DNA of 64,000 nucleotides from Schlesneria sp. DSM 10557 (GTDB lineage Bacteria; Planctomycetota; Planctomycetia; Planctomycetales; Planctomycetaceae). Location of the stretch: assembly GCF_041860085.1 (NCBI RefSeq), contig NZ_CP124747.1, forward strand, positions 2,418,001 to 2,482,000, in the 5' to 3' direction. Below the pieces are notes generated by a model, which worked only from the letters and a program-made list of their open reading frames with translations, did no database searches and was not told the origin of the DNA. Below are positions 7,429 to 15,342 of this stretch, one piece after another. Made by a program: the position numbers and the translations under genes. Numbering within the stretch: the first letter of the stretch is position 1; each line of letters begins with the position of its first letter.

Positions 7429-8733
7429 TCAGGGGGTGGTCCAGGCGGCACCATCCGGAAAGGAAAACTCTGCAATCGACTCTGGTTTCATCGTGATGCT
7501 GTAACCCGGTGCTTTGGGAGGAACATAGTGCCCGTTACGCATCTCGACAGGATCCACGAAATGCTCGTGCAAGTGTCCGGCGAATTCACAGAGACGATTC
7601 TCGAGCGAACCACTGACGCAGATGTAGTCGATCATCGCCAGGTGCTGAACGTACTCACAGAGCCCTACACCGCCAGCATGGGGACAGACAGGAACGTTAA
7701 ACTTGGCCGCAAGCAGCAAAACGGCCAGCACCTCGTTGACTCCACCAAGCCGGCAACTATCGATCTGGCAAACTCCGATGGCGCCGGACTGGAGAAACTG
7801 CTTGAAGAGAATCCGGTTCGCACAGTGTTCGCCGGTCGCGACCTGAATCGGAGCCACCGCTTTGGCGATCGTTAGATGGCCCAGAACGTCATCAGGGCTG
7901 GTCGGTTCTTCGATGAACCATGGTTTGAACTCGGCCAGCGACTTCATCCATTCAATCGCTTGGGGCACCTCCCAGACCTGATTCGCATCAACCATCAGTC
8001 GGCGTTCCCAACCAATCTCTTCGCGAATAATCCGGCATCGGCGGATGTCGTCGTTCAGGTCGCGTCCCACCTTGATTTTAAAGACGTTCCACCCTTGAGC
8101 GAGGCAGTCGCGGCACAAACGGCGCAGCTTGTCATCGTCATACCCCAGCCATCCTGCTGAGGTGGTATAGGCGGGATATCCTTCCCGCTGCAGTTGCGCA
8201 ATTCGCGCCGACTTGGTGGGTGCGATCCGCGAGAGAATCTGAAGGGCCTCACCGGGACTGAGGACGTCGGTGAGATATCGGAAATCGATGCACGCGACGA
8301 ACTGCTCAGGCGTCAGATCGGCGACCAGTTGCCACAACGGTTTGCCTTCCGTCTTGGCCCAGAGATCCCAGACGGCGTTGACCACGGCCGCTGTCGCCAG
8401 ATGGATGACCCCCTTGTCCGGACCGACCCACCTCAACTGGCTGTCTCCGGTGATATGACGCCAGAAGCCCGCCATGTCTGACGTAAACGATTCCAGAGTC
8501 CGGCCCACAACGAGCGGCGCCAGCGCCTCAATCGCAGCGACACAAAGTTCATTCCCCCGACCAATCGTAAAGGTCATACCATGCCCTGCGGCATGGTCGG
8601 CCCGATCCGTCTCCAGCACGACATAAGCGGCCGAGTAGTCTGGATCGGGATTCATCGCGTCCGATCCATCGAGCATTCGAGATGTCGGAAAGCGGATGTC
8701 AGATGCCGTCAGTCGCGTGATCGTCGTGGGCAT
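7429..8733 (-). CDS. L-fuconate dehydratase (enolase superfamily)
   Basis: 434 residues from the ATG at 8733 (MPTTITRLTASDIRFPTS). An upstream in-frame extension to 8829 lacks family similarity. The protein follows the FucD branch of the mandelate racemase/enolase group: N-terminal DIRFPTSRMLDGSDAMNPDPDY, then KIKVGRD with the catalytic lysine, DANQVW and EEPTSPDD with metal ligands, TGEHCANR, and CPHAGGVGLCEYVQH with the general-base histidine. It would dehydrate L-fuconate to 2-keto-3-deoxy-L-fuconate (EC 4.2.1.68), part of non-phosphorylated fucose breakdown. No other fucose pathway gene is nearby, so it may belong to a dispersed algal-polysaccharide pathway. Confidence 0.9.
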   Translation of the reverse strand: MPTTITRLTASDIRFPTSRMLDGSDAMNPDPDYSAAYVVLETDRADHAAGHGMTFTIGRGNELCVAAIEALAPLVVGRTLESFTSDMAGFWRHITGDSQLRWVGPDKGVIHLATAAVVNAVWDLWAKTEGKPLWQLVADLTPEQFVACIDFRYLTDVLSPGEALQILSRIAPTKSARIAQLQREGYPAYTTSAGWLGYDDDKLRRLCRDCLAQGWNVFKIKVGRDLNDDIRRCRIIREEIGWERRLMVDANQVWEVPQAIEWMKSLAEFKPWFIEEPTSPDDVLGHLTIAKAVAPIQVATGEHCANRILFKQFLQSGAIGVCQIDSCRLGGVNEVLAVLLLAAKFNVPVCPHAGGVGLCEYVQHLAMIDYICVSGSLENRLCEFAGHLHEHFVDPVEMRNGHYVPPKAPGYSITMKPESIAEFSFPDGAAWTTP

Positions 8734-8878
8734 GAGTTGAAGTATCTTTATCTGGGGGAACCTTGCACAGATATTTGCGTGGAATGGTATCGCGAGTGCC
8801 CGGACCGTTCCACTTCCCGAAATGTGCAAATACCAATCTGCACCAGGCCCATGACTCGCCGGCGGAGGTCGTACGTCG

Positions 8879-8907
8879 TTGACCGGGGGAACCAGAACTG
8901 ATACGAT
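8879..8907 (+). promoter_or_regulatory. Candidate sigma-70 promoter of the leuA leader transcript
   Basis: TTGACC (8879-8884), a 17-bp spacer and TACGAT (8902-8907) give a good sigma-70 match. Transcription would begin near 8914, about 54 nt before the leader peptide start, exactly where an attenuated leuA transcript would need to begin. It lies in the divergent gap after the fuconate dehydratase start. Confidence 0.55.
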
Positions 8908-8967
8908 TTCAAAGGTTAGTGATAATTACGGCGAACCATTTTCCGTCTCCATTGTCTGCCCTGTACC

Positions 8968-9012
8968 ATGACACCATTTTCGTTCCTGCTACTGGGCCTG
9001 CTAGCTCGCTGA
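8968..9012 (+). CDS. leuL: Leucine-rich leader peptide of leuA (attenuation control)
   Basis: A 14-codon ORF, ATG at 8968 and TGA at 9010-9012, reading MTPFSFLLLGLLAR. Five of its fourteen codons are Leu, clustered as CTG CTA CTG, then GGC, then CTG CTA. It sits inside a probable leuA leader transcript, 54 nt after the predicted start and 48 nt before a terminator stem. There is no strong Shine-Dalgarno sequence, which is common in this window. The composition and position match the leader peptides of leucine biosynthetic operons in other bacteria. Scarce charged tRNA-Leu would stall a ribosome on these codons. The gene symbol follows that functional analogy, not sequence homology. Confidence 0.7.
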   Translation: MTPFSFLLLGLLAR

Positions 9013-9090
9013 GATGCGAGGTTCAGGGAACGTCTGGTCGCACGATATGCACATGTTCACCCTGAGACCTCGTGGTCTCAGGGTTTTTTG
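8997..9090 (+). promoter_or_regulatory. Transcription attenuator of leuA (protector, antiterminator, terminator)
   Basis: Four pairing segments are visible. Segment 1 (8997-9009, the end of the leader ORF) pairs with segment 2 (9016-9027) through CTCGC/GCGAG and CCTG/CAGG. Segment 2 (GGTTCAGGG, 9020-9028) can instead pair with segment 3 (9060-9069) through nine pairs and one bulge. Segment 3 pairs with segment 4 (9074-9083) in a perfect 10-bp terminator followed by six T. A ribosome stalled on the Leu codons would cover segment 1 and free segment 2 to form the antiterminator. A ribosome at the TGA would cover segment 2 and let the terminator form. Confidence 0.7.
9060..9090 (+). terminator. 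Intrinsic terminator in the leuA leader
   Basis: Stem CCCTGAGACC (9060-9069), loop TCGT, stem GGTCTCAGGG (9074-9083), then TTTTTTG and a further T run. No gene ends upstream on this strand apart from the 14-codon leader, and leuA begins 171 bp later. It therefore terminates within a leader rather than after a gene. Confidence 0.85.
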
Positions 9091-9261
9091 TTTTTACAAC
9101 CCCGCTTCACGCTGGATCGTCACAGGGTGGAGTGGTCAACTGACGTTTGTCCCGACGATTGCCCCTGGTCCTGAATAACCTCGAACCGACACGGAACAAC
9201 GATCGAGCATCAATCAACCGATTGATGTTGTCACCTTTCACTTTTCATTGTGAAACACACC

Positions 9262-10851
9262 ATGCCTGATCATGTAATCATCTTTGACACGACCCTTCGC
9301 GATGGCGAGCAATCCCCCGGTTGCAGCATGACGACCCCTGAGAAACTCAAGGTGGCAGAAGCACTCGTGGAACTGGGTGTCGATGTCATCGAGGCAGGGT
9401 TCCCCATCACTTCCCCGGGCGACTTCGAATCCGTTCGTGCCATCGGACAGAAGTTCGGCGACCGTGCCACGATCTGCGGGTTGGCTCGCTGTCGACGCCT
9501 GGATATCGAGCGGGCTGCAGAAGCGTTGAAGGGAATCGCAAAACCGCGCATTCACGTCTTTCTCGCGACAAGTCCCATCCATCGCGAATTCAAGTTGAAG
9601 ATGGCCGAGCGTGAGATCGTCAAAACCGCGGTCGAACACGTGAAGCTGGCGAAGTCGTTCTTTGAGGACATCGAATTCTCGCCCGAGGATGCCGCTCGGA
9701 CAGAACTCGATTTCCTGGCCGAAGTCGTCGAAAAGGCGATCGAGGCGGGTGCGACCACGGTGAACATTCCCGACACTGTTGGATATGCGACTCCAACACA
9801 CTATTTCAAGGTCATTTCTCATCTGAAGCAGCATGTCTCCAACATCGACAAAGCAGTGATCAGCACTCACTGCCATAACGATCTGGGACTGGCTGTCGCC
9901 AATAGCCTCGCCGCAGTCGAAGCAGGGGCCCGGCAGGTGGAATGTACGATTAACGGATTAGGCGAGCGGGCAGGGAATGCCGCGCTTGAGGAAATCGTCA
10001 TGGCCTTGAAAACGCGCAAAGACTATTACGGAGTCGAAACGCGTATTAACACACCAAAGCTGTGTGGTGCCAGTCGCCTGGTTTCGAGTATCACCGGGAT
10101 GCTCGTTCAACGAAACAAGGCGATCGTGGGCCAGAACGCCTTTGCACATGAAGCCGGGATCCATCAGGACGGCATCCTGAAAGAACGCAGCACGTACGAG
10201 ATCATGCGGGCAGAGGATGTCGGCTATGTCGGCGCGAACCTTGTTCTCGGCAAGCACAGTGGCCGGGCCGCGATCCGCTCACGCGTGATTGAACTGGGCT
10301 ACCAACTCGACGAAGCTCAGATCGAGACCGTCTACAAAGACTTCATCGCCCTGGCTGACAAGAAAAAGGACATCTATGACGCGGATATCGTGGCACTGAT
10401 CGATAACAGGTTGACCGTCACGACGGATCGCTGGGAACTCGTTCGCTTTCACATCGCCGCCGGGACGGGAACGATTCCCACGGCGACCGTCGAATTACGA
10501 GATCTGGCGTCAACCAAACCAGCGGGTCTCGATGGAGTCGACGAATCGACTACGACACCCAAGACCCACAAGGATGCCTCGATCGGTGACGGGCCTGTGG
10601 ACGCCGTCTGCAAAGCCATGGAACGAATCGTCGGCATCAACGCGGAATTGAAAGACTATCAGGTGCGAGCAGTCTCCGGGGGCGAAGACGCCCAAGGGGA
10701 AGCTTCCGTCGCGATCGTTTATCACGGTCGCCGTTATCACGGCAAGGCCGTCAGTACAGACGTCATTGAAGCCAGTGCTCTGGCTTATTTGAAGGCATTG
10801 AACAAGGTCCTCCGCGACTGTCCAACGGAGAAAGCATTGCCAGGGGTCTGA
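9262..10851 (+). CDS. leuA: 2-isopropylmalate synthase
   Basis: 529 residues from the ATG at 9262; a GTG 12 bp upstream is a possible alternative start. It condenses acetyl-CoA with 2-oxoisovalerate, the first committed step of leucine biosynthesis. The catalytic TIM barrel starts with [12 protein letters not shown] near residues 9-20, has the [20 protein letters not shown] metal-binding strand, then [18 protein letters not shown]. The C-terminal 130 residues form the LeuA_dimer regulatory domain (strands around VELRDLA and [13 protein letters not shown]) that binds leucine for feedback inhibition. Together with the upstream attenuator, the gene appears controlled by leucine at both the RNA and enzyme level. 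No other leu gene follows in the window. Confidence 0.97.
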
Positions 10852-13573: not shown

Positions 13574-15079
13574 TCAGCTTTCAATCGTCGGAGTGGCAGG
13601 TCCCTTTCTCAGAGTGCTGTGTTTCATTCCGTAAAAGTAGTAAATCGCAAGCCCCAGTCCCATCCACGCGATCAGTCGCAGCCAGTTTGCTGCAGGGAGT
13701 GAAAACATCAACGTGAGACAAGCCCCGATGCCCAGCAGGGGAACAAGCGGAACCAAGGGACAACGGAACGGACGAGGCGCATCTGGGTTTGTGTACCGCA
13801 TGACGAGAACGGCAGCGCAAACGATTACGAACGCGAATAATGTTCCGATATTTGTGAGGTGAAGAAGGGCATCGATGGGTAGAAACCCTGCCAGAAAAGC
13901 AACGAACACTCCGATCGCGATTGTGCTTTTCCAGGGAGTGCGAAAGGTGGGATGCACATCTGCGAAGAATGCTTTGGGAACAAGCCCATCTCGAGCCATT
14001 GCCAGAAAAACGCGTGGAGCGCTCAGCATCATCACCAAAAGAACTGACGTGATTCCCGCCACGCCGGCAGTCGCGATGATCACTTCGGCCCAAGGAATTC
14101 CCGCATTTTTGAATGCAGACGAAATTCCCGAGTCTTTGTCGATCTGGTCATATTTCACCATCCCTGTCAGTACAGCAACCACGGCGACGTACAGAATCGT
14201 GCAAATTAACAGCGACGCAATAATCGCGATGGGAACGTCACGTTGAGGGTTTCGGGCTTCCTCTGCGTGGGTCGATACAGAGTCAAAACCGATGTAAGCA
14301 AAAAAGATGATCGCAGCACCGGCCAACATTCCGACGGGCTCTTGTGCCGCGTTGGTTTCGCCAGCAACGTGATACCCGAAGATGTTCAAACCAGTCCAAC
14401 CATAGGGAGCAAAGGGAGTCCAATTCTCCGGGTGAATGTAGAACGAGCCGACCAGGATCACAAAAACCACCGCAGCGACTTTAATAAAGACCATCAACGC
14501 GTTGAATCCCGCACTCTCGGAGATTCCCTTGACGAGGATGAATGTCATGATTGCAACAATCAGGACCGCAGGAAGATTGAAATACGATCCTGTCAGAACA
14601 AACTGGTCATTCTCAAAAACCACCGTCGCCCTGTTTAATGACGAGGGAAAGTGCAGTCCAGCTTTAGATATCACTGTCTGAAAATAGCCAGACCACCCGT
14701 TCGCGACGGTCGCGGCTCCCACCGCGTACTCCAGAACCAGATCCCAGCCAATGATCCAGGCGAAGAGCTCCCCCATCGTGATATAAGCGTAGGTGTAGGC
14801 ACTGCCAGCGACCGGTGCCATCGAGGCGAACTCGGCGTAACAGAGGGCTGCAAAGATACAGGTCATGCCTGCCACGATGTACGAAATCATCAGGGCTGGT
14901 CCCGCCGTTTCACTGGCAGCTTTACCGGTCGCGACAAAGATTCCTGCACCGATCACCGCACCGACCCCCAGGGATGTCAGATTGACCGGCCCGAGGCACC
15001 GCTTCAGACGCTGATCCCCTTTCATGTCGACTAATAGCTCGTTCAGATCTTTGCGGGCAAACAGCTGACTCCAATTCAT
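13574..15079 (-). CDS. APC-superfamily amino acid permease
   Basis: 501 residues starting at the ATG at 15079 (MNWSQLFARKDL). The in-frame extension to 15247 is not typical and is omitted. Twelve or more hydrophobic helices are present. The first holds GVGAVIGAGIFVATGKAA, the unwound substrate-binding Gly motif of cationic amino acid transporters, after the typical KRCLGPVNLTSLG lead-in. YAEFASMAPVAGSAYTYAY follows. It probably imports or exchanges an amino acid; the pattern is closest to the CAT/YfnA branch. It is divergent from the DUF1501 gene and is the only membrane transporter of its kind here. Confidence 0.88.
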   Translation of the reverse strand: MNWSQLFARKDLNELLVDMKGDQRLKRCLGPVNLTSLGVGAVIGAGIFVATGKAASETAGPALMISYIVAGMTCIFAALCYAEFASMAPVAGSAYTYAYITMGELFAWIIGWDLVLEYAVGAATVANGWSGYFQTVISKAGLHFPSSLNRATVVFENDQFVLTGSYFNLPAVLIVAIMTFILVKGISESAGFNALMVFIKVAAVVFVILVGSFYIHPENWTPFAPYGWTGLNIFGYHVAGETNAAQEPVGMLAGAAIIFFAYIGFDSVSTHAEEARNPQRDVPIAIIASLLICTILYVAVVAVLTGMVKYDQIDKDSGISSAFKNAGIPWAEVIIATAGVAGITSVLLVMMLSAPRVFLAMARDGLVPKAFFADVHPTFRTPWKSTIAIGVFVAFLAGFLPIDALLHLTNIGTLFAFVIVCAAVLVMRYTNPDAPRPFRCPLVPLVPLLGIGACLTLMFSLPAANWLRLIAWMGLGLAIYYFYGMKHSTLRKGPATPTIES

Positions 15080-15342
15080 CGCGATTCCTTCGGATGGAAG
15101 TATGACGGTCGCAGAGATCGGGACCGACCGACTGAGCACGTTCGTTATCTGGACAAACGGTAACGCCCAGCAGGAGTCATTTTGAAGCTCCACGCATCGA
15201 AAATCTGACATCAGGGCTTCGGAAAGCCGCTGGTAGGGTCCTCGCAAATGGGCTTCCTGTTTCCTCGGCTTGCAATTATCTTGAACGCATCAGAAAATGC
15301 GAATGTTTAGCAAATCGATTCTGCGCAGCCAGGGGAATTCGG

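Follow-up and report, generated by a model that had tools for sequence, protein, structure and literature searches.

In silico analyses indicate that the region upstream of leuA in a Schlesneria sp. very probably functions as a ribosome-mediated transcription attenuator, which would sense charged leucyl-tRNA and control leuA. Genome comparisons further make it likely that the class Planctomycetia, including Gemmata-like genomes, attenuates both branch-point synthases, leuA (Leu) and cimA (Ile/Val), commonly with the stop codon of the leader built into the antiterminator arm. The window analysed here, a stretch of 64,000 nt (C1:2418001-2482000), belongs to a host genome of 7.07 Mb contained in one contig, whose closest named relatives by LeuA are uncultured Schlesneria genomes (L001-L004) with 79-88% LeuA identity. 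The features of the locus are listed in Table 1.

Table 1. Features of the leuA leader region of Schlesneria sp., in window coordinates
Feature	Position	Strand	Details
Promoter-like element, TTGACC-17-TACGAT	8879-8907	+	-35, TTGACC, 8879-8884; -10, TACGAT, 8902-8907; 17-nt spacer
Leader ORF, MTPFSFLLLGLLAR	8968-9012	+	14 codons; ATG 8968; stop TGA 9010-9012
Putative control codons	8986-9003	+	CTG CTA CTG (8986-8994), GGC, CTG CTA (8998-9003)
Possible protecting hairpin, 5' strand	9005-9009	+	5 pairs with 9016-9020
Antiterminator 5' arm	9016-9028	+	Partner 9060-9073
Intrinsic terminator hairpin	9059-9084	+	11 pairs; 4-nt loop TCGT
U-tract	9084-9095	+	T6 at 9084-9089, then G, then T5
leuA, 2-isopropylmalate synthase	9262-10851	+	Profile matches TIGR00973, NF002086

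The product of leuA scores well above the profile cut-offs, with 700.1 bits for TIGR00973 (cut-off 598.7) and 752.6 bits for NF002086 (cut-off 532), and an in-frame GTG at 9250 represents a possible alternative start. A TG dinucleotide lies 5' of the -10 box, two of the five Leu codons of the leader are CTA, and the antiterminator helix comprises 13 pairs with one bulged G (-21.9 kcal/mol, z -4.4). A preliminary description of this DNA had claimed an upstream promoter-like sequence, which is present and recurs across the class, and a 14-codon leader with five clustered Leu codons, which is present as well; it had also claimed a perfect 10-bp terminator followed by T6, of which the terminator and the T6 are found as described and the hairpin has 11 pairs.

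Two neighbouring genes occur on the minus strand of the window. One (7429-8829) is enolase-superfamily-like and divergent from the putative leuA promoter, with L-talarate/galactarate dehydratase as best match (120 bits, below the cut-off of 500), and its longest ORF has its 5' end ca. 50 nt from the leuA -35 box. The other (13574-15247), located ca. 3 kb from leuA, corresponds to an amino-acid permease; among the families it matches best the branched-chain amino acid transporter BcaP, at a score of 579.8 bits that falls short of the cut-off (690).

The occurrence of the element in other genomes was assessed with a detector that accepts leaders of at most 35 codons, having at least 5 Leu within 12 codons and ending within 90 nt of a terminator. 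Of the 98 class genomes, 77 carry such a leader and terminator before leuA, versus 1 of 490 dinucleotide shuffles, with G031 omitted from the set (no N-terminal leuA match) and G004, cut at a contig end, scored as a miss. The same arrangement was detected in 13 genomes from a set of 60 belonging to other classes, hand-chosen for high-scoring LeuA and family spread, versus 0 of 300 dinucleotide shuffles. When the threshold was lowered to at least 4 Leu, the counts rose to 85/98 and 19/60, respectively; at this setting no leader was detected in 41 of the 60 genomes outside the class, and 13 of the 98 class genomes have fewer than 4 Leu in the detector, including G009 which belongs to the same genus as the host. 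A control set was drawn from 80 leuA loci, from which L001-L004 (same genus) and L048, L056, L076 and L077 (short upstream) were omitted. Among the 72 that remained, all three named planctomycete loci reach at least 5 Leu, one of them (L005) being a genome already counted (G049), and none of the 69 loci whose records name no planctomycete does so, with a single one (L078) reaching 4.

At E<=0.1, a covariance model built from 34 chosen family members matched 143 of the 150 genomes of the family, a loose count since the 34 training genomes are included, the E-value is generous and the match positions were not individually confirmed. Among the genomes with a completeness of 90% or more and a contamination of 5% or less, 118 of 119 were matched. 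One of the genomes matched by the model is G009 (E 1.8e-3), in which no leader is visible. In this 4.7 Mb genome of the same genus (locus L095), a promoter-like site is retained and no Leu leader with terminator was seen before leuA, in what appears to be a loss of the attenuator upstream of this gene. Overall, the spread of the attenuator suggests an ancestry at class level or deeper and not a single-genome curiosity.

Upstream of the leader, a promoter-like site of the form TTGAC-17to19-TAnnnT occurs in all 12 genomes of the genus. Among genomes with a leader, it is found in 64 of 85 within the class, versus 4 of 1700 shuffles, and in 6 of 19 belonging to other classes, versus 1 of 380 shuffles. 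A motif resembling GCGAACC...TGTCC was also seen by eye to recur near the leader or the -35 box, in the window (8929-8962) and in the leuA upstreams of many relatives. As a candidate leu-specific site this motif was rejected, with 42 genome matches versus 19 for a reversed control pattern; the window's own copy deviates from the search pattern.

Evidence for the antiterminator comes from a co-evolution test in which each genome's arm was paired with its own terminator arm and compared with the arms of other genomes over 2000 permutations. Own arms gave the stronger duplexes, and co-evolution was detected in members of the family from other genera (N=45, z -7.3), in other families (N=28, z -8.1) and in other classes (N=19, z -5.5), with 0/2000 permutations in all three cases. 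Within the genus, whose sequences hardly differ, the test is not decisive (N=12, z -1.6, 159/2000 permutations). Column covariation tests, as well as the covariance model, rest on a chosen set of 34 rows: the alignments include 43 of 57 family leaders and, outside the genus, 34 of 45, from which 11 with a different-looking layout were omitted. In these 34 rows, the terminator helix displays 32 doubly changed cells (0/500 shuffles as high) and covariation of the antiterminator columns is modest (22/500 shuffles as high), with 85.3% of the antiterminator cells paired (45/500 shuffles) and one slid version scoring higher. A short hairpin preceding the arm is visible by eye in many aligned relatives. 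Strong conservation of this protecting hairpin was not seen in the permutation tests, which gave z -0.6 for all 93 in a first version and z -2.5 for all 93 in a second, the latter with z +1.9 within the genus and z +0.4 in other classes.

The behaviour of the competing helices was then modelled by folding constrained with assumed ribosome footprints, the ribosome at the stop being represented as cover of 8995-9024. For RNA ending at 9073, the antiterminator pair probabilities range from 0.40 to 1.0, with at least 10 of the 13 pairs above 0.75, when no ribosome is present or when it is placed on the Leu codons, and fall to 0 with the ribosome at the stop. For full-length RNA at equilibrium, folding favours the terminator in each of the four states modelled, at 0.84, 0.87, about 0.54 and 1.0, and the margin is narrowest (about 0.54) when the ribosome occupies the first Leu codon, so that the choice would have to be kinetic and made during transcription. 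Of the two alternative pairings put forward in the preliminary description, the antiterminator is borne out by the co-evolution of its arms outside the genus and the protecting hairpin finds little support in the comparison; the predicted order of ribosome states is reproduced for RNA ending at 9073 and not at full-length equilibrium, where the terminator prevails throughout. The check proposed there, a search for conserved leader and stems in related planctomycetes, revealed that leader, antiterminator, terminator and promoter-like site all recur across the class.

Over 104 loci, the median distance from the first base of the last Leu codon to the start of the antiterminator arm is 12 nt, and the ribosome has been described to cover up to 12 nt beyond a stop codon (excerpt of PMC4833913). 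Under the assumed footprints, both this geometry and the constrained folding predict that a ribosome at the control codons would leave the arm free and that a ribosome at the stop would cover it. Of the 92 relatives outside the genus, 62 have the leader stop codon within the antiterminator arm, and none of the 12 Schlesneria does (62/104 loci overall); this codon is TAG in 53 of the 62. Outside the genus, a terminating ribosome would therefore often sit directly on the arm.

The leader ORF also carries a marked rare-codon bias. In the 27 genomes with a leader of a 30-genome set, CTA accounts for 41 of 154 Leu codons of the leaders; in the leuA genes of the full set, it accounts for 3 of 1076 (Fisher p 5.5e-36). 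The five Leu-codon columns of seven Schlesneria leaders vary at codon positions 1, 2 and 3 in 0, 1 and 4 cases, respectively, and outside the Leu runs the leader peptides of most genera look dissimilar by eye. These patterns indicate that the leader ORF is under selection at the codon level. CUA is the Leu control codon that enteric leu attenuators use and that is predicted to suit control best, and its preference in a distant phylum agrees with the theory in which the sensitivity of tRNA charging governs the choice of control codons (excerpt of PMC1183508).

In the host genome, the covariance model has a second match, outside the window and directly before cimA (C1, about 3454775-3454942; L253/L258), which encodes a citramalate synthase (TIGR00977, 630.5 bits, cut-off 450). 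The corresponding leader, MPLPPVIRLRCASQAFIAGMIVVSIIGDL, is rich in Ile/Val; a terminator accompanies it, as does a promoter-like site of the leuA type. The cimA gene was found in 65 of 69 genomes and the upstreams of 63 were analysed (G041 and G065 left out): a terminator together with a leader of 5 or more Ile/Val within 12 codons precedes cimA in 44 of these 63 class genomes, versus 1 of 315 shuffles, and a promoter-like site precedes 37 of these 44 leaders, a count made without shuffle control. When a single detector was applied at both genes, at least 5 Leu were found in 77/98 genomes at leuA and 3/63 at cimA, and at least 5 Ile+Val in 3/98 and 44/63, respectively. Since cimA opens the isoleucine branch and leuA the leucine branch, codon identity in the leaders follows the product of the pathway. 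This match between codons and pathway represents the strongest single argument for what would be amino-acid-specific attenuation, and it supports the leucine attenuation reading already advanced in the preliminary description.

The antiterminator of cimA likewise co-evolves outside the genus (N=31, z -7.6, 0/2000 permutations), with z -2.5 within the genus (N=13) and a weak value (z -1.7) in the host genome itself. GTA is enriched in cimA leaders (odds ratio 8.6) and, among their Ile codons, ATA is not (p 0.72). Elsewhere in the host genome, no arrangement of leader and terminator was found at the best match for ilvB (L247, where one hairpin occurs without a suitable leader), at leuC (L250), which is located apart from leuA, at trpE and its second homologue (L325 and L326) or at hisG (L327). 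The last three loci have no terminator within 700 nt, and the ORF upstream of L325 contains several Trp codons.

The Gemmata-like genomes show a variation on this scheme. In five of six genomes of the genus g49, a squalene epoxidase gene and a squalene/oxidosqualene cyclase gene lie no more than about 1.1 kb apart, a neighbouring pair that we take to mark Gemmata, and g49 is on this basis presumably Gemmata. Squalene epoxidase alone was rejected as a marker, its family also matching in the E. coli and Caulobacter controls; the cyclase is above cut-off in 16 of 21 genomes, and the neighbouring gene pair is the stronger marker. At five g49 leuA loci (L141, L142, L148, L150 and L151), a Leu-rich leader is kept with the arm within the ORF and a weak U-tract at the hairpin. 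Across the Gemmata-like family f3 (11 genomes), the best antiterminator arm at leuA lies inside the leader ORF and the U-tract is mostly weak, with antiterminator z of -0.2 to -2.9 in 9 of the 10 genomes scored and -5.0 in G092; no ORF was found in G067. At cimA, the four g49 genomes scored retain the leader, the arm and a terminator with a U-tract (z of the arm from -3.8 to -5.0 in G062, G080 and G086, -0.9 in G071), and this element is more canonical than the one at leuA. The leuA mechanism in g49 may differ from the canonical version.

The mechanism that we infer, from promoter use and leader translation to footprint limits, kinetics and the leucine response, would operate as follows in the window. 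RNA polymerase would start just 3' of 8907 and a ribosome would follow onto the leader. With leucine scarce, this ribosome would stall at the control codons with a footprint ending about where the antiterminator arm begins, so that 9016-9028 would be free to pair with its partner, block the terminator and allow leuA to be transcribed. With leucine plentiful, the ribosome would reach the stop and cover the RNA roughly to 9024, hiding most of the arm; the terminator hairpin would then form and transcription would end in the U-tract. If no ribosome is present, the antiterminator is predicted to form first, which is unusual, and there would consequently be perhaps little of the super-attenuation that is known from trp.

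Other readings of the same parts were weighed against this one. T-boxes and riboswitches likewise use pairs of terminator and antiterminator, and leuA might thus be controlled by a T-box or a metabolite-binding riboswitch, the leader ORF being incidental. This is very improbable given that no Rfam 15 family matched in the window, in 8860-9300 (E up to 10) or in 16 related loci (gathering threshold), that the T-box covariance model in particular gave no match in 8860-9300 up to E 10, that just 60 nt separate the -10 box from the leader start in the window, and that the leader ORF is selected at the codon level. A switch based on nascent-peptide arrest would rely on identical parts and RNA logic, with the same arms acting and the ribosome stalled by the leader peptide, with or without a metabolite, and not by charged tRNA. 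Arrest-peptide uORFs do occur in other Planctomycetota (excerpt of PMC10987492); such a switch is nonetheless improbable here, as the leader peptides of most genera differ by eye beyond their Leu runs, what is preferred is a codon (the CTA bias described above), and cimA leaders carry other amino acids that fit their own pathway.

Translation of the leader could also act on leuA chiefly through RNA protection or reinitiation and not through early termination. Reinitiation from leader genes has been proposed for several groups including Planctomycetes, for leaders that end about 10-14 nt before the gene (excerpt of PMC4833913); in the window, the distance from leader end to leuA start is ca. 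249 nt. Both variants leave the conserved terminator and the co-evolving antiterminator unexplained and are highly unlikely. As for an ordinary intergenic terminator next to a chance ORF, a terminator by itself is not rarer than chance in this region (one found, shuffle mean 1.2), and chance is therefore excluded through conservation and not through the single sequence: comparative conservation, co-evolution, codon bias and the specificity seen at cimA all contradict this reading, as does the conserved promoter-like site upstream of the terminator on the same strand, leaving it scarcely credible.

Compared with known systems, the putative attenuator of leuA departs from the enteric leu attenuator (leuL of Salmonella and E. 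coli, presumably the Leu_leader of Rfam) in having no Rfam match and in that leuA stands apart from leuC. The stop-in-arm layout of relatives outside the genus (62/92) may be a further difference. What both share is a Leu leader before leuA, the CUA control codon (excerpt of PMC1183508) and the alternative between terminator and antiterminator. The likeness to trp and his attenuators of Proteobacteria lies in a ribosome whose position would pick between exclusive helices. In the trp attenuator the stop codon is found just before the antiterminator arm, and the window resembles it with a stop codon immediately 5' of that arm. Differences concern the amino acid, the sequences and the protecting hairpin, which here is short and weakly supported, so that leader translation may not be required for read-through.

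The LEU element found upstream of leuA in Actinobacteria, compared here by its description, involves a pseudoknot whose base stem joins the Leu run to the Shine-Dalgarno site of leuA, and classical attenuation is reportedly opposed by mutation data in that case (excerpt of PMC1262725); the window differs by a U-tract terminator located ca. 170 nt before leuA and by a co-evolving antiterminator. The Leu/phe leader of Lactococcus (RF01743) and Termite-leu (RF01730) are other leader RNAs tied by name to leucine genes (excerpt of PMC2864571), and differ in being from other taxa and in having no match in the window or the 16 related loci.

In the excerpt of PMC4833913, planctomycetes appear solely as one group with a reinitiation-type distance peak, and a term search of the available portion of PMC2965389 gave no mention of planctomycetes. 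No report of planctomycete attenuation was found among the literature matches listed; a cross-bacterial survey from 2010 (Lopatovskaya) could contain one. What appears new is the phylum, the depth across the class, the pairing of leuA with cimA and the stop-in-arm layout seen in relatives, the mechanism as such being of a known kind.

These data would extend classical amino-acid attenuation to a phylum for which the literature matches listed hold no such report. Attenuation works only if the first ribosome closely trails RNA polymerase, and the coupling of transcription and translation has been disputed in planctomycetes. A separation of the two processes has been described for this phylum, and for Gemmata in particular (Gottshall 2014, cited in excerpts of PMC5287468 and PMC5394234), and in a 2026 study Planctomycetota are absent from the list of phyla with runaway transcription given in the excerpt (PMC13323073). 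Because attenuation needs this close coupling, the leuA and cimA leaders would offer a reporter of transcription-translation coupling in the phylum.
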